Origin: an uncultured Prevotellaceae bacterium
GTDB taxonomy: Bacteria; Bacteroidota; Bacteroidia; Bacteroidales; Bacteroidaceae
Assembly (NCBI GenBank): GCA_900315105.1
Contig: OMXX01000010.1
Location: 1 to 64,000 of the forward strand
Length of the DNA stretch: 64,000 nt
Direction: 5' to 3'
The position numbers were made by a program, and so were the translations under genes. Shown in pieces: positions 8,218 through 54,309 of the stretch (positions are counted from its first letter, which is position 1; every line of letters starts with the position of its first letter). A model generated the notes under the pieces. It worked only from the letters and a program-made list of their open reading frames with translations, was not told where the DNA came from and ran no database searches.

Positions 8218-8254
8218 ACTAATTCCGTCACAAATAACAGGCTTACAACTCCAC

Positions 8255-8355
8255 TCTTTCTCCATCGTTTGTCCATCGTTACTCCATCGTTCCTCCATCG
8301 AAACGATGGACCATCGATGGAGTATCGATGGAGTATCGATGGAGTATCTACGGAG
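8255..8355. repeat. ATCGATGGAGT tandem units in inverted halves
   Basis: The left half carries TCCATCGTT four times at 9-12 base spacing; the right half carries ATCGATGGAGT about three times in tandem. The halves are complementary around CGAAACG at about 8298-8304, giving a long imperfect hairpin upstream of the hypothetical gene. Confidence 0.85.
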
Positions 8356-8427
8356 GAAGAGCGGACATATAGCGGTATTACTTATAAGTGAAATGCCTTG
8401 TATTAGGGAAGGAAAAAGCATAGACGA

Positions 8428-30138: not shown

Positions 30139-31545
30139 ATGTTTAGCAAAGAGACTTACATAAAACGTCGAGCTGTTCTGCGAGAACTTGTTGGAAATGG
30201 AATCATCGTACTTTTCGGCAACAACGAATCCCCTTGCAACTATCCGGCAAACGGCTATTATCCTTTCCGTCAGGATTCATCTTTCCTCTATTATTTCGGT
30301 CAAAAAGAAATAGGGCTGATTGGCGTCATAGATTGTGACAACGGTCAGGAATGGCTTCTTGGCGATGATGTGGATGTTGAGGATATCGTGTGGTATGGCT
30401 CAGTTCCTACAATCTCCGACCTTGCCTCTGAGGTTGGTGTAAGCAATTCCGCTCCTTGGAAGAAGATTGAGGATATTATTGCTGAAGCAAAGCGTACAAA
30501 TCGCAAGATTCATTTCTTGCCCCCTTATCGTCATGACAACCAGATTCAGATTATGGATCTGCTCGGCATACATCCATACAAGCAGAAAGAGGCATCCTCA
30601 CTTGAGCTTATCAAAGCCGTAGTGAAGATGCGCTCAAAAAAGACTGCCGAGGAGATAGAGGAACTTGAGCGTGCAGCCGTAATAGGCTATGAGATGCACA
30701 CCGAGGCTATGCGTATGATTCGTCCGGGAAGGACAGAGAAATTCATTGCCGGCCAAATAGACGGCGTGGCTCATTCTCTTGGATCACACGTCAGTTTTTC
30801 CACGATATTCTCTCAGCATGGTGAGATAATGCATGGTGGTCCTTCTATGAACCCACTCGAGGACGGCCGTCTGGTACTCTGCGACTGTGGTGGCGAGACG
30901 ATGGATCATTACTGTTCGGACAATACGCGTACTATGCCAGTAAACGGCAAATATACCCAGCGTCAGAAAGAAATATATGATATCGTGGATGAGTGTCACG
31001 ACTTGGCCTTGAGCGTTGCAAAGCCTGGAGTTAAGTATTTTGACGTGCATCTTGCTGTCTGCCGACTGATGACTGAGCGTTTGAAGGAAGTAGGTTTGAT
31101 GAAAGGTGATACTGACGAGGCAGTAGCATCCGGAGCTCACGCTATGTTCCTGCCTCACGGTCTTGGTCACATGATGGGTATGGACGTACACGACATGGAA
31201 GGTCTTGGTCAGATTTACGTAGGCTTCGACGAAGAGACTCGTCCAAATCTCGAACAGTTTGGCACCAACTGCCTTCGTATGGGCAGACGATTGGAAGAAG
31301 GCTTCGTTGTAACGGACGAGCCGGGTATCTACTTCATCCCAGCCCTTATCGACGACTGGCGTTCAAAAGGCCATTGCAAGGACTTCATCAACTTCGAACT
31401 GCTTGAGACATACAAGGACTTTGGCGGCATCCGCATCGAGGATGACATACTCATAACCAAGGACGGTTGCCGTTTCCTCGGAGAAAAGCGTATTCCATAC
31501 CACACAAAGGATGTGGAGGAGTATATGGAAAGGAATCGGGAATAA
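30139..31545 (+). CDS. pepP: Xaa-Pro aminopeptidase (M24)
   Basis: A 468-residue metallopeptidase that removes N-terminal residues preceding proline. N-terminal creatinase-like domain (residues 1-180), then the pita-bread catalytic domain. Metal ligands are visible: the first Asp in LCDCGGETMDHYCSDNTRT with the second Asp there, His in LPHGLGHMMGMDVHD, Glu in VTDEPGIYF and Glu in RIEDDI. It is cytosolic (no signal peptide). It has its own promoter and leader, divergent from ugd. The gene symbol is by family; pepQ-type dipeptidase activity is a possible alternative. Confidence 0.93.
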   Translation: MFSKETYIKRRAVLRELVGNGIIVLFGNNESPCNYPANGYYPFRQDSSFLYYFGQKEIGLIGVIDCDNGQEWLLGDDVDVEDIVWYGSVPTISDLASEVGVSNSAPWKKIEDIIAEAKRTNRKIHFLPPYRHDNQIQIMDLLGIHPYKQKEASSLELIKAVVKMRSKKTAEEIEELERAAVIGYEMHTEAMRMIRPGRTEKFIAGQIDGVAHSLGSHVSFSTIFSQHGEIMHGGPSMNPLEDGRLVLCDCGGETMDHYCSDNTRTMPVNGKYTQRQKEIYDIVDECHDLALSVAKPGVKYFDVHLAVCRLMTERLKEVGLMKGDTDEAVASGAHAMFLPHGLGHMMGMDVHDMEGLGQIYVGFDEETRPNLEQFGTNCLRMGRRLEEGFVVTDEPGIYFIPALIDDWRSKGHCKDFINFELLETYKDFGGIRIEDDILITKDGCRFLGEKRIPYHTKDVEEYMERNRE

Positions 31546-31562
31546 AAACAAGTTTTATTATA

Positions 31563-31602
31563 TTTGGAAAGTAAATTAAAAACAAATTAAATCAGTAAAT
31601 TA
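31563..31602 (+). repeat. Left arm of GTAAATTA inverted repeat flanking the GxxExxY gene
   Basis: Forty bases containing GGAAAGTAAATTA and AAATTAAATCAGTAAATTA. It matches the reverse complement of 32093-32132 at about 35 of 40 positions. Another copy of the same arm lies at 34172-34213. Confidence 0.9.
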
Positions 31603-31632
31603 CAAAACAATAAATTAAAACATTTAATTTCT

Positions 31633-32064
31633 ATGACAAAGGATGAATACATAGAAATGTACAAAGTGGTAGGAGCCGCAATGAAAGTACACGAGGTATT
31701 AGGTCGTGGACTTGAGGAGGCTATCTACCAAGAATCCTTAGAAATAGAAATGAGAAATCGGAATATGATTCCTGAGCGAGAGAAATCTATTGATTGTTTC
31801 TACAGAGGAATAAAGCTCAAAAAGCATTATGTAGCTGATTTCTATTACAATGGTATAATCATCGAACTAAAAGCTATCAATAAAATTCTTCCAGAACATA
31901 CGGCGCAACTGTTCAACTACATGAGACTAACTCATACAAATAGAGGCTTGCTTATAAATTTCTTCGGAAAGCATCTTTATGCTGAGCGCTATTGGTATTT
32001 GGAACATATAGATGATTTCATTCTTCTTACAGAAGATAATTATAAGGATTATATCGAGGAATAA
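31633..32064 (+). CDS. GxxExxY protein (PD-(D/E)XK-like)
   Basis: A 143-residue member of the GxxExxY family. Seen: the name motif in GRGLEEAIYQESL (residues about 23-35), and a PD-(D/E)XK-like core YVADFYYNGIIIELKAI with Asp, then Glu-x-Lys. The family is widespread in Bacteroidota and its function is not established; nuclease fold is inferred from these residues. The gene is bounded by 40-base inverted arms (31563-31602 and 32093-32132) and sits between unrelated peptidase genes, as a cargo gene would. It has no partner gene. Confidence 0.9.
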   Translation: MTKDEYIEMYKVVGAAMKVHEVLGRGLEEAIYQESLEIEMRNRNMIPEREKSIDCFYRGIKLKKHYVADFYYNGIIIELKAINKILPEHTAQLFNYMRLTHTNRGLLINFFGKHLYAERYWYLEHIDDFILLTEDNYKDYIEE

Positions 32065-32092
32065 TTTTCCAAAAATATAATTTACTGTATTT

Positions 32093-32132
32093 TAATTTAC
32101 TGATTTAATTTACTCCTAATTTACTTTCTAAA
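32093..32132 (-). repeat. Right arm of GTAAATTA inverted repeat flanking the GxxExxY gene
   Basis: Contains TAATTTACTGATTTAATTTA and CTAATTTACTTTCTAAA, three complementary GTAAATTA words at 11-13 base pitch. It is followed by the small hairpin GGAACGCAAGTTCC. Confidence 0.9.
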
Positions 32133-32188
32133 AAGAGGAACGCAAGTTCCATTTCGCAAGTAAACATAATTTAATTTCAAAAAAAGAT

Positions 32189-33391
32189 ATGAAGAAAATT
32201 TTATTTCTCGCCGCTATGGCAACTCTTTCTCTTGCTGCCAACGCAGAAGAGGCAAAGAAGGATTCGGTGAATCCTAACAAACCGGTATTTACAACTATCA
32301 TAGAGAATCCTATCACGAGCATCAAGAACCAGGCTCGCTCTGGCACCTGCTGGAACTACTCTACCCTCTCCTACTTCGAGGCAGAGATTCTGAAAAAGAC
32401 AAAGAAGACATACGACCTCTGCGAGATGTTCGTATGCAACAAGAACTATATGGATCGTGCCATTCTCAAGGTGCGTATGCATGGTGATGCTCAGTTCTCT
32501 CAGGGCGGTTCTGCATACGATGTGCTCTACGTCCTCCAGAATTATGGTATCTGTCCGGAAGAGGCTATGCCTGCTCCTGGCTCCCTCTATGGCGATACCC
32601 TCAACAACTTCAATCAGCTCTTTGCCGTTATGGAGCCATACGTCAAGGCTGTTGCCACAAAAGACGTGAAGAAGCTCAATCCTGCATGGAAAAACGGTCT
32701 TCAGGGTATTCTCGACGCTTACCTCGGCAAGTGTCCTGAGAACTTCAAGTACGAGGGCAAGCAATACACCCCAAAGACCTTTGCTGCAAGTCTCGGACTT
32801 GACTGGAACGACTATGTATCAATAACATCATACACACACCATCCTTTCTACACAGCATTCCCTGTTGAGGTTCAGGACAACTGGCGCCAGCCTGCTTCTT
32901 GGAATCTCCCTATGGATGAGATGGCTGAGGTTATCGACAATGCCGTTCGTCAGGGATATACCGTAGCATGGGGCGGTGATGTTTCAGAGGATGGCTTCAC
33001 ACGCGACGGACTTGCACTTCTCATCGACACAAAGTCAACCGATCTTGCAGGTTCTGATATGGCCAAGTGGCTCAAGCTCTCTGCAACTGAGAAGAAGAAC
33101 AAGCTCAAGGAACTTGGTGTGAACGTGAAGGAAGAGACCCCTACACAGGAGAAGCGTCAGGAAGAGTACGACAACTGGACCCTTACCGACGACCACGGAA
33201 TGCTTATCTATGGTATAGCAAAGGACCAGAATGGCCGTGAGTACTATATGGTAAAGAACTCATGGGGTGAGACTGGTGACTACAAGGGCATCTGGTATAT
33301 GTCAAAGAACTTCATCGTCGCAAAGACAATGGACTTCATGGTAAACAAGAATGCCATCCCTGCCAAGATACGTAAGAAGCTCGGAATATAA
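32189..33391 (+). CDS. C1-family cysteine peptidase (bleomycin hydrolase/PepC-like), exported
   Basis: A 400-residue papain-fold aminopeptidase. Residues 1-19 form a signal peptide (MKKILFLAAMATLSLAANA), so it acts in the periplasm or beyond. The catalytic Cys lies in RSGTCWNYSTLSYFE, the His in DDHGMLIYGIAK, and the Asn in VKNSWGETGDYKG, which are the C1B (bleomycin hydrolase) contexts. The C-terminus KIRKKLGI is not the usual autoprocessed tail. The neighbouring thioredoxin-like gene is also exported, and the gap between them holds a repeat element. Confidence 0.92.
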   Translation: MKKILFLAAMATLSLAANAEEAKKDSVNPNKPVFTTIIENPITSIKNQARSGTCWNYSTLSYFEAEILKKTKKTYDLCEMFVCNKNYMDRAILKVRMHGDAQFSQGGSAYDVLYVLQNYGICPEEAMPAPGSLYGDTLNNFNQLFAVMEPYVKAVATKDVKKLNPAWKNGLQGILDAYLGKCPENFKYEGKQYTPKTFAASLGLDWNDYVSITSYTHHPFYTAFPVEVQDNWRQPASWNLPMDEMAEVIDNAVRQGYTVAWGGDVSEDGFTRDGLALLIDTKSTDLAGSDMAKWLKLSATEKKNKLKELGVNVKEETPTQEKRQEEYDNWTLTDDHGMLIYGIAKDQNGREYYMVKNSWGETGDYKGIWYMSKNFIVAKTMDFMVNKNAIPAKIRKKLGI

Positions 33392-33576: not shown

Positions 33577-34158
33577 ATGAAAAAAATCATAACTTTTTGC
33601 GCTTCATTGATATTCTCTCTCGTTTCTGTCAACGCGCAGGATCTTGATGCGAAATACGGTGTTGACCTCCTCAAGCCGGGAACCGCAGCTCCAGAGATTG
33701 TTATCAACAAGGACGGCGGAAAGATGAATCTCCTTGAAGAGAACAAAGGCAAGTATCTCGTACTTAACTTCTGGGCTTCTTGGTGTGGCGACTGCCGCAA
33801 GGAACTGAAATATCTCAGAAGCATAAACAGAACCTATGCCGCTACCGACAGCATAGAGATCATAGGCTATTCCTTCGACAATGAGAAAAGCGCATGGAAG
33901 AAATGCATCAAGGATAGTGCCCTCGTTTGGCAAAACTATCTCAGCGAGATCCCTATGCGAAATTCTCGCGTGAAAAGAGACTATCACGTTGGGTGGATTC
34001 CTACCACATACATCATCGACAAGGATGGCAAGGTTATTCTCGCCACCGTTGTAATAGACAAGGTAATAGCAAAACTCAAGGAGATTGCTCCTAACGTTCG
34101 TCCTGACTACCTCCCTCTTGAGTCTCTCATAGCTCCAGAGAAGAAAAAGAAGAAATAG
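33577..34158 (+). CDS. TlpA-family thiol-disulfide oxidoreductase
   Basis: A 193-residue exported thioredoxin-fold protein. Signal peptide 1-20 (MKKIITFCASLIFSLVSVNA), then an AhpC/TSA-like core with the active site WASWCGDCRKEL (CxxC as CGDC) and the cis-Pro loop WIPTTYIIDKDG. It ends in a lysine-rich tail. Likely role is reduction or protection of thiols of periplasmic proteins; the cysteine peptidase next door is a possible client, by inference. Its ATG is 12 bases after the MITE-like repeat. Confidence 0.9.
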   Translation: MKKIITFCASLIFSLVSVNAQDLDAKYGVDLLKPGTAAPEIVINKDGGKMNLLEENKGKYLVLNFWASWCGDCRKELKYLRSINRTYAATDSIEIIGYSFDNEKSAWKKCIKDSALVWQNYLSEIPMRNSRVKRDYHVGWIPTTYIIDKDGKVILATVVIDKVIAKLKEIAPNVRPDYLPLESLIAPEKKKKK

Positions 34159-34171
34159 CTTTTCAGAAATC

Positions 34172-34290
34172 TTTTGGAAAGTAAATTCTCAGTAAATTGT
34201 AATCAGTAAATTAGGAAGTGGCATCTGCCACAAGATATTCCCAACAATAATTTATTGGATATAATTTACTTCTAATTTACTTTCTAAAAG
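34172..34290. repeat. Cargo-less copy of the GTAAATTA inverted-repeat element
   Basis: Left arm 34172-34213 (GGAAAGTAAATT ... AATCAGTAAATTA) and right arm 34259-34290 (TAATTTACTTCTAATTTACT) match the arms around the GxxExxY gene, but the centre is only 45 bases, holding the hairpin GTGGCATCTGCCAC. Confidence 0.88.
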
Positions 34291-34325
34291 TTTTCCCCCA
34301 AAAACAGCTTGCTGCTGTATTTAAT

Positions 34326-34578
34326 GGGTGTAATAGTTGGTGTAATACTATTTTTCAAAAAAGTTTTCAAAGCCGAGTATTACACTTTGCAGATTTATGC
34401 GCATTAAACCATTGTATATCAACTCGTTTACTCTGGTGTAATACTCCCAAAGGTATTACACCAGTATTACATCAAATCATAAAAATTGGTGTAATACTTT
34501 CAAGGATATTACACCACATCTAACGCTCTGATAATCATCAAAAATATTGCACACAATATCAAAAGGTGTAATACTCGC
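34326..34578. repeat. Cluster of GTGTAATAC words
   Basis: About nine copies of GTGTAATA or TATTACAC within 250 bases in both orientations, forming nested hairpins such as CTGGTGTAATACT with AGGTATTACACCAG and TGGTGTAATA with TATTACACCA. No coding frame. Part of the gene-free stretch 34159-34803. Confidence 0.88.
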
Positions 34579-34629: not shown

Positions 34630-34725
34630 ATACCGTTCCACCTCCGTTTCAAATCCGTTGTAAGTCCGTTCTCTATAACTATAGGATGATGGGACTTACA
34701 TAGGACTTGCAAAGGAGGAAGAAGG
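34630..34725. repeat. Inverted repeat of TCCGTT units
   Basis: CCTCCGTTTCAAATCCGTTG and TAAGTCCG on the left pair imperfectly with GGACTTACATAGGACTTGCA and AAGGAGG on the right. Same style as 27005-27150. Confidence 0.7.
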
Positions 34726-34803
34726 GAGTTGTTTTTATATCATTAATTTGTTTTATAGAATAAGTAGAACACCTTGTTTCTTTCGTTGCTATAGACTTTA
34801 CCA

Positions 34804-36162
34804 TTATAGCTTTATTGTTAGCATTTCTTTTAATTCCTGTATTGTATGTGGCGGTTCTTTTCTATGCAACATAGCATGACAATTAGGACATACAGGAACA
34901 AGATCTTTTACAGGGTCAAGTTTATATTCTTTTCCAATAGAAGATATGGGAACTATATGATGTACATGGATAAAACCACGTCCAATCTCACCATACACTT
35001 TCTCGAAATCCATTCCACAAACAGCACACTTACAACCACAAGCTGCGATACACCTATCTCTTGCCTCATGGCTACGCTCATAACGGTTAACTACAATTTC
35101 CTTTTTTGCACCCTCAAAGACAATTTCAGAATTAGGTATTTCATCGTAATAATTTGTTTGCAGAGTGAAATATGGAAAAATATATTCAAATAATTCAGGA
35201 TTGTTTTTCATGGGGGATTGAAGACTTTTTCCCCCATTAAATCCATGAAGTTTAAGGTTTTCTTCTCTCAAGGCATCATTCATAGACTCTGCAACCAATT
35301 CTAACTTGTAAGTAAGATGCTGGGAGACGCCATTATCAACCCTATATTTACTGTCTTCTCTTTCACAATTATCTTTTACCACTCTTGTCATGAACCTTAC
35401 ACGCCTCTCATCAGACATAAATAAGTAGACAATATCTCCAATAGAGAAGTTTGTTCTATACATCGTCCAATTTATGAATCCAATTTCATGCAAGGCTTCT
35501 GCATGATGCCACATTTTTCTATTACAGAATACTAACCATTTCTTTGGAAGTTTACCATATCTGCTTTCACATTCATCTAACAACATCCATGGAATATGCG
35601 AGAAAGACGAATATTCTCCTTTCTGAACGGATTTAATCAGACTTAAAAGAGTATAACTTGCTTTTTCCCAATTAACAGGATCGTAGTTCGTTATAAATAC
35701 ATCAGTATATATACGTAAATATTCAACAAGTTTATTAATACGTGAAATGTCACATTCTGTACAAAGAAGCTTTGGCTGCAAACCAACCAGCATACGGTTG
35801 GTTGCAACATTCAGGTTTCTATTTGTATATTTCCTGATAATATTCCTTATAGCTTCGTATTCACTCCATAGCGAAACGTCCTGACTATCAGCAATAGCTT
35901 TAAGATGTGGGGCTAATTCCATCCAATGCTCTTTGACAGACATCTTTTCTGCCGTACTCATTTGACCATTTCCTAATTTGGCTATACAATTTAGTCCTTT
36001 CTCAAAATAGTGCTCAAACACATCTTTATCCCATTGTGTCCAATTTCTGCCCTTCTTGGCTTCTTCTATAAACTTTGAAGTATAATATCTATATCTCTGA
36101 TTGTAATTATCAGAGTCTTTCAGACTGTCTATAAGTTCTTTTAATGACTGTTTCATAAGCAC
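34804..36162 (-). CDS. EVE-like/HNH endonuclease
   Basis: A 452-residue protein with a clear C-terminal HNH nuclease (about 380-440): CKCAVCGMDFEK, then HVHHIVPISSIG, then LVPVCPNCHAMLHR, giving the two zinc pairs and catalytic His-His-Asn-His pattern. The middle (about 205-300) has KKWLVFCNRKMWHHAEAL, FINWTMYR and FSIGDIVYLFMS, the pattern of EVE/PUA-like domains that read modified bases in modification-dependent restriction enzymes. The N-terminal 200 residues are helical and unrecognised. It stands alone with repeat-rich DNA on one side and a terminator on the other. A defence role against modified phage DNA is inferred; the HNH call is firm, the EVE call moderate. Confidence 0.82.
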   Translation of the reverse strand: MLMKQSLKELIDSLKDSDNYNQRYRYYTSKFIEEAKKGRNWTQWDKDVFEHYFEKGLNCIAKLGNGQMSTAEKMSVKEHWMELAPHLKAIADSQDVSLWSEYEAIRNIIRKYTNRNLNVATNRMLVGLQPKLLCTECDISRINKLVEYLRIYTDVFITNYDPVNWEKASYTLLSLIKSVQKGEYSSFSHIPWMLLDECESRYGKLPKKWLVFCNRKMWHHAEALHEIGFINWTMYRTNFSIGDIVYLFMSDERRVRFMTRVVKDNCEREDSKYRVDNGVSQHLTYKLELVAESMNDALREENLKLHGFNGGKSLQSPMKNNPELFEYIFPYFTLQTNYYDEIPNSEIVFEGAKKEIVVNRYERSHEARDRCIAACGCKCAVCGMDFEKVYGEIGRGFIHVHHIVPISSIGKEYKLDPVKDLVPVCPNCHAMLHRKEPPHTIQELKEMLTIKL

Positions 36163-36439: not shown

Positions 36440-38602
36440 CTATTCATCCAACAGGATCTTCATCATCTCTACAGCAGCCTTGGCTACTGAGGTACCAGGA
36501 CCGAAAATAGCGGCAACACCTGCCTTGTAGAGGAAGTCATAGTCCTGAGCAGGAATAACGCCACCTGCAATAACCATGATATCTTCACGTCCCATCTTCT
36601 TGAGTTCCTCGATAAGAGCAGGAACAAGAGTCTTGTGACCAGCAGCAAGCGAGCTGACACCAACGATATGCACATCGTTCTCTACAGCCTCACGAGCAGC
36701 CTCCTCAGGAGTCTGGAACAGAGGTCCCATATCAACGTCGAAACCGCAATCGGCATAGCCTGTTGCAACAACCTTAGCACCACGGTCATGACCGTCCTGT
36801 CCCATCTTAGCTATGAAGATACGTGGACGACGACCTTCTAACTTCGCAAACTTCTCAGTAAGCTCACAAGCCTTCTCGAAGTCGCTGTCATTCTTTGATT
36901 CTGAACTATACACGCCTGAAATTGTTCTGATTACTGCCTTATAACGACCTACGACTTTCTCGCAGGCGTCAGATATCTCACCCAATGTACAACGAACCTT
37001 TGCTGCCTCTACAGCAAGAGCAAGGAGGTTGTTCTCCGACTTCTTGCCATCAGCAAACTCCTGTACGCAAGCTGTGATGGCTGCAAGTGCCTTCTGACAA
37101 GCTTCCTCATCACGCTCAGCCTTCAGTTTCTTGAGGGCTGCCTCCTGCTGAAGACGAACAGCGGTATTGTCAACCTCAAGGATATCAATAGGATCCTCGT
37201 GCGCAAGACGATACTTGTTAGTTCCAACGATTGTCTGAACGCCAGAGTCGATACGAGCCTGAGTACGAGCAGCAGCCTCCTCAATACGCATCTTAGGCAC
37301 ACCTGTCTCGATAGCCTTAGCCATACCGCCAAGCTTCTCAATCTCCTGAATGTGCTCCCAAGCCTTGTGAACAAGTTCGTTGGTAAGAGTCTCTACATAG
37401 TAAGAACCAGCCCAAGGGTCGATTTCCTTACATACCTTTGTCTCGTTCTGGATGTAGATCTGGGTATTACGGGCAATACGAGCAGAGAAGTCGGTTGGAA
37501 GTGCGATAGCCTCATCAAGAGAGTTGGTATGAAGCGACTGAGTATGTCCGAGGACAGCAGCCATAGCCTCAATACAGGTACGACCGACATTATTGAATGG
37601 ATCCTGCTCTGTGAGCGACCATCCAGATGTCTGAGAGTGAGTACGCAGAGCCATTGACTTCGGATTCTTTGCCCCGAAACTCTTCACTATCTTTGCCCAC
37701 AACAGACGACCGGCACGCATCTTTGCAATCTCCATGAAGTGGTTCACGCCTATTGCCCAGAAGAAAGACAGACGAGGTGCGAATGCGTCGATATCAATAC
37801 CAGCATTGATACCTGCGCGGAGATAGTCCATACCGTCGGCAAGAGTATAGGCAAGCTCGATATCGGCTGTTGCTCCAGCCTCCTGCATGTGATAGCCAGA
37901 GATAGAGATGCTATTGAACTTAGGCATCTTCTGTGATGTGAATTCGAAGATGTCAGCGATAATCTTCATAGAGAATGATGGCGGGTAGATGTATGTGTTA
38001 CGCACCATGAACTCCTTGAGGATATCATTCTGGATAGTTCCGGCCATCTCCTCAAGTTTTGCGCCTTGCTCAAGACCTGCAACGATGTAGAATGCCATGA
38101 TAGGAAGCACACCACCGTTCATAGTCATAGATACAGACATCTTATTCAATGGTATTCCATCGAAGAGCACCTTCATGTTCTCTACAGAACAGATAGACAC
38201 GCCAGCCTTACCCACATCGCCCACAACACGCATATTATCAGGGTCATAGCCACGATGCGTAGGGAGGTCGAATGCCACAGACAGACCTTTCTGTCCGGCA
38301 GCAAGGTTACGACGATAGAATGCGTTACTCTCCTCAGCCGTAGAGAATCCGGCATACTGACGGATTGTCCAAGGACGGAAAGGATACATCATTGAATAAG
38401 GACCACGGAGGAATGGCGGTATGCCGGCTGTGAAGTCAAGATGCTCCATGCCCTCAAGATCCTCCTTGGTATATACAGGTTTAACATCAATCTGCTCTGG
38501 AGTCTTCCAGTTATAGTTGATGCCATTCTCTTTCTGCCAATCAGCACCATTCCTCGGTTTGATGCAAGCAGATATATCGATATTGTTGAAATTCTTTCGC
38601 AT
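36440..38602 (-). CDS. mutB: Methylmalonyl-CoA mutase large subunit
   Basis: B12-dependent catalytic subunit interconverting succinyl-CoA and methylmalonyl-CoA, in the succinate-propionate route. 720 residues from the ATG at 38602 ([11 protein letters not shown]); an earlier start would translate a GC-rich repeat. The TIM barrel carries [14 protein letters not shown] and [13 protein letters not shown]; the C-terminal cobalamin domain carries the DxHxxG ligand in [15 protein letters not shown] and the [13 protein letters not shown] segment. It follows mutA after a 142-base gap holding a repeat. Together with the decarboxylase subunits at 42.7-45.6 kb it fits propionate production. Confidence 0.97.
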
Positions 38603-38614
38603 AATAGTTATATA

Positions 38615-38736
38615 AGCCCCCCTCCGACTCCCCCGAGTGGGAGGGTTCTTTAGATAGTATTTATCCCTCAAAAGATAGCTTTATACGATATGAGGTATAT
38701 AAACTCCCTCCCCCTCGGGGGAGTTGGAAGGGGGCT
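38615..38736. repeat. GC-rich inverted-repeat element between mutA and mutB
   Basis: Arms CCCTCCGACTCCCCCGAGTG at the left and CTCGGGGGAGTTGGAAGGGG at the right are inverted copies around an AT-rich 60-base centre. It ends 12 bases before the mutB ATG, in the leader position. Confidence 0.85.
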
Positions 38737-38743
38737 GTTAGTT

Positions 38744-40600
38744 TTAGTTGATACCGAGTTTCTGATTAAACATTTTCAGGGTTTCAAGCTGATTTACCTT
38801 CACATGAATGAAATACTCAATGCCGGCAGCCTTCAAGTCCTCTGAGCAAGCTGGAGCACCTGCAACTACGAACATTGCCGAATCACCCGTTGCCTGATAT
38901 GCAGGAATAGCATATTCTGCATACTCATCATCAGAAGAACAGAGAACGATGATATCAGCACCTGCCTCCTTGGCTGCAGCAACACCTTCCTCAACGGTTG
39001 CAAAGCCGAGGTTATCGATAACCTTATATCCGGCAGCAGCAAGGAAGTTGCAAGAGAACTGAGCACGAGCCTGACGCCAAACGAGATTACCGATAGTAAG
39101 CATGAATGCCACAGGCTGTTTCTTTGCCTTCTCCGTTGCCAGACGGAGGTTCTCAAAGTCGGCTGCGAGTCGTGTGCTATTGATGCTCTTAATGCTTTCA
39201 GCCTCTGAACTGCAAGAATTCTTACAGTCTCCAATAGGCTGCTTGCCCTCTGATTTCTCGGTAAAGTTAGGGAACTGGTTAGTACCAAGGATGAACTCAC
39301 GACGCTGAGCAGCATGCAAATGGCGCTTCTCGTTGGTTGCGTTGATGTCATCCTGAATAGTTCCGGCAAGAGCAGCAGCAAGGAAACCACCCTCTTCCTC
39401 TACCTTCAGGAATATCTTCCAACCCTCAGCAGCAAGCGAAGTGGTTAGCTCCTCTATATAATAAGAACCAGAAGCAGGATCAACAACCTTATCGAAATGA
39501 CACTCTTCCTTCAAAAGCAACTGCTGATTGCGAGCTATACGCTCGGAGAAGTCATTTGGAGTCTCATAGACAGCATCGAATGGAGTTACCACGATTGAAT
39601 GAACTCCCGCAATAGCAGCCGACATTGTCTCTGTCTGAGAGCGCAGCATATTCACATAGGCATCAAAGACCGTCATATTATAAGATGTGGTAACAGCATT
39701 CACGCACATCTTACAAGCGCAATCGCACTTAGGCTCATACTGCTTGACAATCTGAGCCCAGAGCATACGAGCTGCACGGAACTTTGCAATCTCCATGAAG
39801 TAGTTCTCTGAAATGCCCATGTTGAACTTAATCTTACTTGCCGCAAGAGTAGGATCAACACCTGCATCAACCAGTTGCTGAAGATACTCGTTACCCCAGG
39901 CAAGGGCATAGCCGAGTTCCTGAACGATATAGGCACCTGAATTGTTGAGCGATACTGAGTTTACGGAGACACAACGGAAATTAGGGTAATCCTTGAGAGC
40001 ATCAATAAGAGCAGGACCAAGCTTGAGTACAGCCTGAACATCATGTCCCTTTACCACTATCTTCTCAATAGGATCCCAGTCGATAGAACCAACAACCTTC
40101 TCCTTATTATATCCCTTCTTCTCGAAATATGCAACAAGAATCTGGGCAAGTTCCACGGAATGACGCTTGCAGGTGTTGAAATTCACCTCCACAACATCAC
40201 AGAGAATACCATCAAGCAACTGCTCGATGAAATCAGCACTTACAGAATCACCTGGGATTGTAAAAGAAAGGGAGTCGATACCCTTGTTCAGAATGTCGAG
40301 AGCCTTTGCATTGGCAGCCTTGGCATCAGAAGCGTCAATTTCCTGACGCACATACCACAAATTATTGTCTTTCTTGTTTCCACGAACGAATGGGAATTCG
40401 TCTGGCATGGCATTAGGAGTCTGCAATTTCTCTACGTCCTCACGGCGGTAGAAAGGCTGCACACTAAAGCCTTCATTTGTCTTCCATACCAAGCGTTTCT
40501 GGAAATCCGCCCCCTTGAGGTCAACCTCGATTTTGTCAAGCCACTCTTGGGTGGTAGGCGCAGAAAACTCGGTAAAGAGTTTCTCTTTGTTATTAGCCAT
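38744..40600 (-). CDS. mutA: Methylmalonyl-CoA mutase small subunit
   Basis: 618-residue partner of MutB, with the same barrel-plus-flavodoxin-like layout but without a cobalamin-binding DxHxxG motif (the corresponding region reads NLGFATVEEGVAAAKEAGAD). Seen: KIEVDLKGADFQKRLVWKT near the N-terminus, DWDPIEKIVVKG, and ETMSAAIAGVHSIVVTPFD. It is required for a stable heterodimer and is not itself catalytic, from knowledge of the family. The cysteine-rich CDCACKMC stretch at about 300 is also known in related Bacteroidales proteins. First gene of the mutA-mutB pair. Confidence 0.96.
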   Translation of the reverse strand: MANNKEKLFTEFSAPTTQEWLDKIEVDLKGADFQKRLVWKTNEGFSVQPFYRREDVEKLQTPNAMPDEFPFVRGNKKDNNLWYVRQEIDASDAKAANAKALDILNKGIDSLSFTIPGDSVSADFIEQLLDGILCDVVEVNFNTCKRHSVELAQILVAYFEKKGYNKEKVVGSIDWDPIEKIVVKGHDVQAVLKLGPALIDALKDYPNFRCVSVNSVSLNNSGAYIVQELGYALAWGNEYLQQLVDAGVDPTLAASKIKFNMGISENYFMEIAKFRAARMLWAQIVKQYEPKCDCACKMCVNAVTTSYNMTVFDAYVNMLRSQTETMSAAIAGVHSIVVTPFDAVYETPNDFSERIARNQQLLLKEECHFDKVVDPASGSYYIEELTTSLAAEGWKIFLKVEEEGGFLAAALAGTIQDDINATNEKRHLHAAQRREFILGTNQFPNFTEKSEGKQPIGDCKNSCSSEAESIKSINSTRLAADFENLRLATEKAKKQPVAFMLTIGNLVWRQARAQFSCNFLAAAGYKVIDNLGFATVEEGVAAAKEAGADIIVLCSSDDEYAEYAIPAYQATGDSAMFVVAGAPACSEDLKAAGIEYFIHVKVNQLETLKMFNQKLGIN

Positions 40601-52452: not shown

Positions 52453-53246
52453 CCCCCTTGACAGTTTGACAGATTGACAGATGACAGATTTTTGGCCCAA
52501 CTATACAAGTACAGAATAACCTGAAAGACAACACATTAACATCTAAATCACCCTAAATGTCAATCAAGCAGAAATCGATTATAAAATTTACTTTAGCTAC
52601 AAATCTGCTCACAACAACCCGAATCTGTCATCTGTCAATCTGTCAAAAAAATGACAGGGGGATTTTTTTTAGAGGGGCGCATAATTTTCCCTATAATAAA
52701 AAAATATATAAATATATTTTTTTATTATATGTATTTTTAGAGCGCGGAATCCCCCACTTGACAGATTGACAGAATGACAGATGACAGATTTTTAACATTT
52801 GTTGTATTGTGCACTAAAATTCAGAAATTTTCGCAGTTAATCAGTTTTGTATCAACGCTTTACAAGTTTGTAAAAATTACAGCACGTCGCTTTTTGCATT
52901 TTTTCCTTGCAGGATTTGAAAGATATTTGTACCTTTGCACCAGGAAATCAAAAAACTCCCAATCGAAGGACAAGATGAGGATGCTGATGATTTCCCATCG
53001 ACAAAAGTCCACCGCCGATGTAAAAAGACAAAAAGTCCTATACTAGTTCGTAGTAAACCCGTAGTGAAGCCCTTATTACAATGGGCGCTCAATGGGAGAA
53101 CCGATTACGATAGGCAAACATTTATTTCTCTTCTACTACACTACTTGCAAAGCAAACTAATCCAAACAGAAAACAAAATCATGTATTTGCCTACCTGCAT
53201 AGAATCCGGCTCCAATCTGTCAATCTGTCAATCTGTCAAGGGGGGG
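52453..53246. repeat. TGACAG-word inverted-repeat array
   Basis: Four arms of three to four TGACAG words: 52453-52493 (+), 52622-52662 (-), 52751-52793 (+), 53214-53246 (-). The middle pair flanks a perfect AT palindrome with 17-base arms (52693-52728). The outer pair encloses a promoter and 300 bases without a recognisable gene. Words repeat at 7-8 base pitch. Confidence 0.9.
52907..52937 (+). promoter_or_regulatory. Strong promoter with no recognised gene
   Basis: TTG (52907-52909), 20 bases, TACCTTTG (52930-52937), a full consensus match. Downstream 52944-53213 has no ATG-initiated frame longer than about 25 codons and no recognised RNA. Confidence 0.65.
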
Positions 53247-53353: not shown

Positions 53354-54226
53354 TTATCCAAGATATTTCATGAGGATCTTTGCATTACCGGAGTCACGGA
53401 GCTTGGTGATTGACTTCTCGCGAATCTGACGGACACGCTCACGGGTAAGACCGAGCTGATCTCCGATTTCCTCAAGTCCCTTCTCGTGACAGCCTATGCC
53501 GAAGCACTCGCGGATGATGGTTATCTCACGGTCCTTGAGCACCTTTGAGAGCACGTTGTTTAGTTCCATAGCCATTGACTCGTGGTCAACGTGGCGGTCG
53601 GTGCGTGAATCCTCGCCTGATGCCATGACGTCGAGCATACAGTTCTCCTCACCATCGGTGAATGGCGCGTCGATACTCACGTGATGTCCGTCGGCACCGA
53701 GGCTCTGACCAATTTTGTCCTCCTCGATATTGGTGGCAGCAGCAAGTTCCTGAACGGAAGGGCGACGCTGGTGCTCCTGCTCGAACTTGTTGATCTCGTG
53801 GTTGATCTTGTTGAGAGAACCTACCTGATTGAGAGGAAGGCGCACAATACGGCTCTGCTCTGCGATGGCCTGGAGGATGCTCTGGCGAATCCACCATACG
53901 GCGTATGATATGAACTTGAAGCCACGTGTCTCATCGAATTTCTGAGCAGCCTTGATAAGGCCGATATTGCCTTCGTCGATAAGGTCAGTAAGAGTAAGTC
54001 CCTGATGCTGATACTGCTTTGCCACAGATACAACGAAACGGAGGTTTGCCGTTACGAGCTTATCCTTCGCACGTTCACCATCCGGACCTCCCTTCTTGAT
54101 CATCTGTGCAAGCTCTATTTCCTCATCAATGCTGATAAGCGGTGCACGACCAATTTCTACGAGATACTTATCCAGAGCTTCGCTGGAACGGTTGGTGATA
54201 CTCTTCTGAATCTTTAACTGTCTCAT
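53354..54226 (-). CDS. rpoD: Primary sigma factor (RpoD/SigA, Bacteroidota type)
   Basis: Directs RNA polymerase to housekeeping promoters. The 290-residue protein has region 1.2 (DKYLVEIGRAPLISIDEEIE), region 2 (TANLRFVVSVAKQYQHQGL and ISYAVWWIRQSILQAI), region 3, and the region 4 helix-turn-helix LEEIGDQLGLTRERVRQIRE. Region 1.1 is absent, as in the known Bacteroidota primary sigma. It recognises the TAnnTTTG/TTG promoters seen throughout this window. Monocistronic with its own promoter and terminator. Confidence 0.96.
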   Translation of the reverse strand: MRQLKIQKSITNRSSEALDKYLVEIGRAPLISIDEEIELAQMIKKGGPDGERAKDKLVTANLRFVVSVAKQYQHQGLTLTDLIDEGNIGLIKAAQKFDETRGFKFISYAVWWIRQSILQAIAEQSRIVRLPLNQVGSLNKINHEINKFEQEHQRRPSVQELAAATNIEEDKIGQSLGADGHHVSIDAPFTDGEENCMLDVMASGEDSRTDRHVDHESMAMELNNVLSKVLKDREITIIRECFGIGCHEKGLEEIGDQLGLTRERVRQIREKSITKLRDSGNAKILMKYLG

Positions 54227-54309
54227 CTCTGATGTTTAATGAAAATTTAATTGTTTGTTATTCAACAAAATATAGGGACATAATAACCCCACATAATAGA
54301 AAAACGGCG

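Follow-up and report, generated by a model that had tools for sequence, protein, structure and literature searches.

Most GxxExxY genes sampled from Bacteroidales lie within inverted arrays of short words and may form part of a mobile-repeat system

The window analyzed here is a stretch of 64,000 nucleotides of DNA from an uncultured Prevotellaceae bacterium (contig OMXX01000010.1). Near its middle, a gene for a GxxExxY protein of 143 amino acids (positions 31633–32064, plus strand) lies between two inverted arrays of short, repeated sequence words. The left arm (31563–31617, plus strand) comprises four GTAAATTA-type words, two of them exact, and this array points at the gene. In the right arm (32078–32132, minus strand), all four GTAAATTA words are exact and run in the opposite direction, and a short hairpin, GGAACGCAAGTTCC (32137–32150), is located immediately beyond this arm. 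This cassette is bordered on the left by an upstream gene for an M24 peptidase resembling aminopeptidase P (30139–31545, plus strand), and on the right by a downstream gene for a C1-type peptidase (32189–33391, plus strand).

A sequence-only reading of this DNA had described a GxxExxY gene enclosed by inverted arms of three words each and interrupting two peptidase genes. The existence of the inverted arms is confirmed. They are each 55 nt long, 85% complementary, and 460 nt apart, and the flanks of the gene yield a local alignment score of 35.0, compared with a maximum of 14.0 among 200 dinucleotide shuffles. The arms are indeed built of repeated words, but the word is better read as AGTAAATT, and each arm holds four rather than three. 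In the left arm, exact GTAAATTA words at 31571 and 31595 are joined by the altered words ACAAATTA and ATAAATTA; in the right arm, exact words at 32078, 32093, 32106, and 32117 have a pitch of 15, 13, and 11 nt. As had been proposed, the GxxExxY gene is the sole gene between the arms and no transposase accompanies it there, so the cassette lacks this feature of an insertion sequence or transposon. In contrast, the cassette sits between the two peptidase genes, and neither is interrupted.

The encoded protein matches the GxxExxY family TIGR04256 with 115 bits (cut-off 35) and PF13366 (PDDEXK_3) with 110.2 bits (cut-off 22). It has both the fold and the conserved catalytic residues of a RecB/Cas4-like PD-(D/E)XK nuclease, which are E29, D69, E78-x-K80, and Q92-xxx-Y96, corresponding to the E, D, E-x-K, and QxxxY motifs of this branch. 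A profile search revealed no Y1 (HUH) domain in the protein, a sequence search against solved structures produced no match, and neither PHROGs nor PADLOC, which represents described defence systems only, recognized it. Rfam likewise gave no match at gathering score anywhere in the window. The protein is under purifying selection, with dN/dS values of ∼0.17, 0.12, and 0.10 relative to the orthologues from G061, G062, and G063, respectively, the three genomes among G061–G064 for which dS was computable. To our knowledge, no role beyond a fold or family name has been assigned to GxxExxY proteins or to the four-helix-bundle proteins (TIGR02436) described below, and the descriptions of both families name none.

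The association between gene and arms is well supported beyond the window copy. Inverted arms of tandem short words flank 73 of 103 GxxExxY genes from Bacteroidales relatives at a score of at least 16, and thus the proposed link between this gene family and inverted repeats proves to be general. The sequence-only reading had also held that GxxExxY genes lacking arms would count against it, an objection borne out only in part, as 30 of the 103 show none at this threshold. Matches to TIGR04256 are present in 37 of 60 relative genomes. Our sample included 84 such places among those listed, 19 loci similar to the window protein, and the window itself, with ten fragments or weak matches left out. 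From these, 106 GxxExxY open reading frames (ORFs) were found, and the 103 having a stop codon and sufficient flank were scored. Two of the remaining three had a short flank and one had no stop; one of the three, from G001, carries arms of another word that score 23 in a longer stretch.

Controls rarely exhibit this arrangement. Mismatched pairs of upstream and downstream flanks gave arms in 0 of 103 cases (maximum score 12.5), and genes for ParE, a small and scattered toxin–antitoxin family, gave 0 of 29 (30 loci sampled and one dropped for short flank; a broken frame makes the gene limits uncertain at one scored locus, L300). Arms were present around four of 124 other ORFs, which were picked mechanically as the longest other ORF at each of the same loci and of the C1-peptidase and four-helix loci, plus up to 25 from the window. 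Two of these four (at L065 and L072) have words resembling those of the GxxExxY cassette at the same locus, so that gene-less elements on both sides are a likely cause. Where present, the arms lie close to the GxxExxY gene, with median distances of 32 nt on the upstream side and 11 nt on the downstream side, and are arrays of a short word that varies between families. A shuffle test detected a significant word period (5–16 nt) in 45 of the 73 armed loci. Among plasmid-borne GxxExxY genes from wider taxa, three of eight have arms, one of these having uncertain gene limits.

The same layout is shared by genes for 23S-rRNA-intervening-sequence/four-helix-bundle proteins (PF05635/TIGR02436), 61 of 78 of which have arms that score at least 16. 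The 60 relatives contain TIGR02436 matches at more than 150 places, and the 78 unique genes derive from 76 of these places (30 + 6 + 40) together with incidental copies. On plasmids, arms reaching the same score surround 10 of 11 four-helix loci inspected from 25 records, and represent Cyanobacteria, Spirochaetota, Bacteroidota, and Bacillota, although gene limits in the last are uncertain. The exception is from Chlorohelix (Chloroflexota), with an arm score of 12.5. Several of the plasmid four-helix genes (L258–L261) reside beside genes for DNA methylase, restriction–modification, DISARM, or cas1.

Word pitch depends on the cargo, being mostly 7–8 nt for four-helix genes and 9–13 nt for GxxExxY genes. 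A best lag of 7 or 14 nt is found in 37 of the 61 four-helix arms but in 2 of the 73 around GxxExxY genes (Fisher p = 2e-14), and a best lag of 9–13 nt characterizes 49 of 73 GxxExxY arms versus 9 of 61 four-helix arms (p = 1e-9). The two classes overlap, since a lag of 8 occurs ten times in each. When flanks were not selected for arms, all 78 four-helix genes still gave a lag-7 identity of 0.381 versus 0.305 for controls, and all 103 GxxExxY genes gave a small lag-9 peak (0.316 versus 0.299). We view the PF05635 cassettes as an apparent sister system in which the words mostly follow at 7–8 nt. We know of no catalytic site in the four-helix protein, and so it is not obvious that a single mechanism could serve both cargoes.

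The two types of cassette can occupy the same site. In the nearest relative, G001, a four-helix cassette with other arms fills the gap that separates the M24 gene from the C1 gene, and its complementary ends surround an ORF that matches TIGR02436 with 86.8 bits and belongs to PF05635 (23S_rRNA_IVP). The M24 gene was found on the fetched stretch at 25 of 30 C1-peptidase loci, and in 22 of these 25 relatives the gap is only 16–113 bp. The longer gaps are those of G001 (586 bp), G020 (323 bp), which is filled by other repeats, and G034 (256 bp, locus L054), which holds a gene-less element with ACAGATT words and a central hairpin, GCGGCATCAGCCGC. This hairpin is much like the central hairpin of the GTAAATTA family, though the words differ.

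Genomes G061 through G064, whose two peptidase genes are 83–94% identical to those of the window, all carry a GxxExxY gene with GTAAATTA arms at the M24–C1 site. In a phylogeny built from both peptidase genes, to which G063 contributes only 120 bases of the second, G001 groups with the window and G061 (support 0.999), and G062, G063, and G064 fall outside this clade. Given this tree, the GxxExxY gene is most simply interpreted as ancestral at the site and as having been exchanged for a four-helix cassette in G001. Since G061–G064 retain their copies at the same site, a jumping GxxExxY cassette is unsupported for the window copy.

These observations affect the earlier proposal that the locus has the layout of a mobile cassette, for which occupied and empty sites should be compared and against which conserved synteny without empty sites would argue. 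Occupied, empty, and exchanged sites do exist, and the repeat link is general, but the window copy is not seen to jump. Synteny is conserved inside a single clade, where one copy has been replaced, and elsewhere the M24–C1 gaps are mostly short, so this objection is likewise borne out only in part. We did not find an empty site that could be aligned to the base and that showed a target duplication, the neighboring states being too divergent.

Arrays of the same words also exist without a gene. Two kilobases downstream of the window cassette sits a gene-less element (34166–34295), which the sequence-only reading of the cassette had not mentioned, with the same arms as the cassette (34166–34213 and 34248–34295; 81% complementary) and a central hairpin, GTGGCATCTGCCAC (34218–34231). 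With the search pattern AGTAAATT-(1-8)-AGTAAATT, which counts word pairs rather than elements and can score several per element, we found 55 pairs in G001, 87 in G061, 105 in G062, 42 in G063, and 34 in G064 (reversed control 0–2), but no more than two in each of the other 59 of the 60 relatives (reversed control at most three). At the loci read in detail, the dispersed copies lie between genes. We read 37 clusters, including the cassette arms of the window and of G061, and in 22 of these the center is flanked on either side by two or more words. The most common layout, present on both sides in 17 elements, is AAAGTAAATT, 3 nt, AGTAAATT, 4–6 nt, AGTAAATT, the center, and then the same series inverted. 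With a gene enclosed between arrays and gene-less arrays scattered elsewhere, gene and repeats look like the two halves of a mobile-repeat system.

Several other repeats are present in the window, which outside the cassette yielded no further GxxExxY or four-helix gene. Word arrays at 34417–34533 and 34633–34726 (GGTGTAATAC; ACGGA-type, 11 nt) directly follow the gene-less element, and ACGGACTTACA-type words have 26 matches in G001. Adjoining this repeat cluster is a gene (34804–36162, minus strand) for a protein of 452 amino acids whose C-terminal HNH domain is like those of type IV or type II restriction enzymes. A dense inverted array of TCCATCG with a pitch of ∼11–12 nt occurs at 8223–8392. 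Moreover, in two inverted pairs of TTGACAGA-type arms, at 52465–52647 and 52751–53246, the arms are 131 and 432 nt apart, with 26 nt at 100% and 32 nt at 94% complementarity, respectively; these pairs lie near an ORF (53354–54235, minus strand) that appears by eye to be sigma-factor-like.

Comparison of the elements reveals which parts have been preserved. Spacers agree no better between the two arms of one element than between elements (0.39 versus 0.375, and 0.52 versus 0.55, in 17 elements), which indicates that the words are conserved and not the pairing of the arms. A long hairpin maintained by arm pairing is therefore unsupported. Short hairpins are a different matter. A hairpin with a perfect 5-bp stem and a 4-nt loop is present in the centers of 9 of the 22 elements, compared with 0.04 expected from shuffles. 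Among related elements, the central hairpins vary through paired changes in a selected set of 15 stems, although the paired share is built into this set because 12 stems came from a perfect-stem search and three were chosen by eye; the unselected figure is the 9 of 22. A second hairpin type lies outside the arms and has a CGCAAG loop in six of seven distinct stems. Four of its five base pairs have changed on both sides among these seven stems, which were chosen for pairing and loop, and stems with a loop like that of GGAACGCAAGTTCC are found beside arms elsewhere as well.

These structures invite an explanation at the level of RNA, in which the elements would resemble the intervening sequences (IVSs) of 23S rRNA, having arms that form a stem and an ORF in the loop, and would spread via RNA copies or a reverse transcriptase. 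The sister cargo does belong to PF05635, the family of 23S IVS proteins, which one study likens to the diversity-generating retroelement (DGR) accessory protein Avd (PMC10053308). The paired changes among hairpins with GCAA-type loops point in the same direction, albeit in a selected set. However, the arm spacers are unpaired within an element, so the long stem required of the arms is not maintained and only the short hairpins are kept. We consider an RNA-level origin improbable, and the least probable of the alternatives weighed here.

Close relatives differ in which sites carry an element. The one at 34166 is shared by the window and L064, but no similar sequence exists there in L062 or in G001, where a different sequence follows window position 34157. 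At 38599–38750, it is G001 that has an element and the window that has a different repeat. These two sites weigh against the idea that the system is now immobile and that the protein has a regulatory or chromosome-organizing function with dispersed binding sites, either through autoregulation at its own arms or in the manner of Chi or uptake sequences paired with a RecB-family nuclease. In addition, the words as counted here come in arrays, often as inverted pairs with a central hairpin, and not singly. Maintenance of the gene at one site under purifying selection fits this idea, as does an old element common to G001, G063, and G062 that keeps most of its words even as its center diverges, being altered in G062. 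On balance, we judge an immobile regulatory system to be quite unlikely.

Arm-word similarity rises with protein identity (rho 0.30; Mantel test, 0 of 500 permutations) across 2566 pairs from different genomes with at most 80% protein identity, a comparison in which shared descent of loci was left in, and the covariation may partly reflect the shared descent of whole loci. The distribution of words among genomes is less tidy. G001 has its 55 AGTAAATT pairs, yet arms of this kind surround none of the three GxxExxY genes detected in it. AAGAATT-type words number 13 in G033, four in G024, and three in G019, all of which have such cassettes; there is one match in G007, in its own cassette, and single matches in four other genomes. 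However, 14 matches occur in G035, and we saw no matching arms at its five GxxExxY genes. ACGGACT words number 13 in G033 and seven in G019, both with such cassettes, but 26 in G001, which is without. For the four-helix class, AGGAGTT words number 122 in G010 (reversed control 6) and 22 in G007, both of which have cassettes of that word; another 22 are in G029, where the four cassettes examined, among 15 matches, use other words. Thus, these other word families are enriched in genomes with a matching cassette but also present where none was seen, and their link to the protein is weaker and less clean.

Since word copies are retained in G001 and G035 despite the lack of a matching gene, their persistence does not depend on it. 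The mismatch in these two genomes could stem from a recent loss, from assemblies that are incomplete (94% and 93%, respectively), or from the activity of another mover. In the last case, an unrelated transposase, such as a Y1/RAYT or insertion sequence enzyme, would act in trans on an element whose ends are the arms, and the GxxExxY gene would be a passenger. Gene-less copies do outnumber gene-bearing ones, as this would predict. A passenger gene, however, would not be expected to come with a particular word pitch. Furthermore, our transposase search, which addressed Y1 (PF01797) only, found no such gene in two of eight genomes, namely G063 with 42 word matches and G033 with 13 of another word, and just one of 11 Y1 loci has even a single AGTAAATT word. 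With no Y1 gene found in these two genomes and the words not located at Y1 genes, a Y1/RAYT enzyme is unsupported as the mover. Overall, movement by an unrelated transposase seems to us unlikely.

The best reading of the collected evidence, to which we give nearly even chances, is that GxxExxY genes and their words constitute a pair like that of REPINs and RAYTs, in which a nuclease of the RecB/Cas4 fold has taken the place of the transposase. By analogy with that pair, the GxxExxY protein would recognize, cut, and move its own words in trans. The window cassette would be the gene-bearing “master” of a family of word-array elements, each consisting of a pair of inverted arrays in which a single short word recurs about once per helical turn, with a middle that is often a small GC-rich hairpin in dispersed members and is the nuclease gene in the master. 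In each arm, its own words are probably what the nuclease binds, and it may then cut the exposed strand or hairpin. Host repair could subsequently insert or copy gene-less elements into other intergenic sites, and the GxxExxY gene itself would mostly stay where it is.

A broader and more tentative proposal, which we regard as plausible but would not yet favor, is that several bacterial phyla harbor two parallel mobile-repeat systems that lack a transposase, one with GxxExxY and the other with PF05635 genes as masters. Each protein would read its own fast-changing word, at a pitch near one helical turn in the case of the nuclease and of 7–8 nt in that of the four-helix protein, and each would spread miniature elements made of this word. 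Many of the heptamer arrays and other short arrays between genes that lack an explanation might be their products. Linking both protein families to inverted word arrays gives each a candidate substrate. It also makes GxxExxY a candidate enzyme for dispersed intergenic repeats for which no transposase was found.

These genes and repeats of gut bacteria appear not to have been linked before. We found no prior account that connects GxxExxY or four-helix genes to word arrays in the literature available to us, which excludes preprints and most subscription journals. Within the available open PMC text, GxxExxY is mentioned in only two papers, each time in passing, and heptameric repeats and four-helix-bundle proteins were not found together.

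Among known systems, the IVSs of 23S rRNA that carry an S23/IVP ORF are similar in that complementary ends enclose one small ORF, and their family, PF05635, supplies the sister cargo at the same site in G001. They differ in that, at the M24–C1 site, both cassettes have protein genes rather than rRNA as neighbors and carry tandem word arrays; by comparison, the ends of the Coxiella IVS are described as one 28-bp stem (PMC4990558). The window cassette is not within an rRNA gene, and its ORF belongs to PF13366 rather than PF05635.

Two types of gene-less repeats are also comparable. Direct repeats of TAACTGA and other heptamers are scattered in the intergenic regions of Beggiatoaceae, Cyanobacteria, and Bacteroidetes, with no mechanism of transfer evident from the portion of the report available (PMC4679880). 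The arrays described here resemble them as intergenic heptamer arrays, but those are mostly direct, whereas ours include inverted heptamer pairs around four-helix genes, in Cyanobacteria as well. The main text of that report does not mention S23 or four-helix proteins, and our findings suggest a possible origin for the arrays it presented without a mechanism. The MITE BrickBuilt of Porphyromonas gingivalis (PMC4596501) likewise lies between genes, carries no gene of its own, and combines tandem units with inverted ends, although its units are 23 nt long without spacers and its abstract names no gene-bearing partner.

REPIN–RAYT systems involve one site-bound gene flanked by repeats and many gene-less inverted doublets in trans (PMC3116915, PMC8266576). 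The present system does possess dispersed gene-less inverted doublets that match the repeats beside the gene. As in REPIN–RAYT systems, the gene is fixed at its site and flanked by repeats, gene-less inverted pairs of the same sequence are dispersed between genes, and repeats and protein diversify together (PMC3116915, PMC8266576). However, the cassette contains no Y1/HUH gene, Y1 was not found in two of the eight genomes, and Y1 loci are not where the words lie, so the cassette is not a member of that class. A PD-(D/E)XK nuclease of the RecB/Cas4 fold stands where RAYTs have an HUH Y1 transposase, and a tandem word array stands where REPINs have the REP palindrome, the palindrome here being a separate hairpin in the middle of the element. 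If the nuclease does move the words, then this would be a REPIN-like system that relies on an unrelated enzyme.
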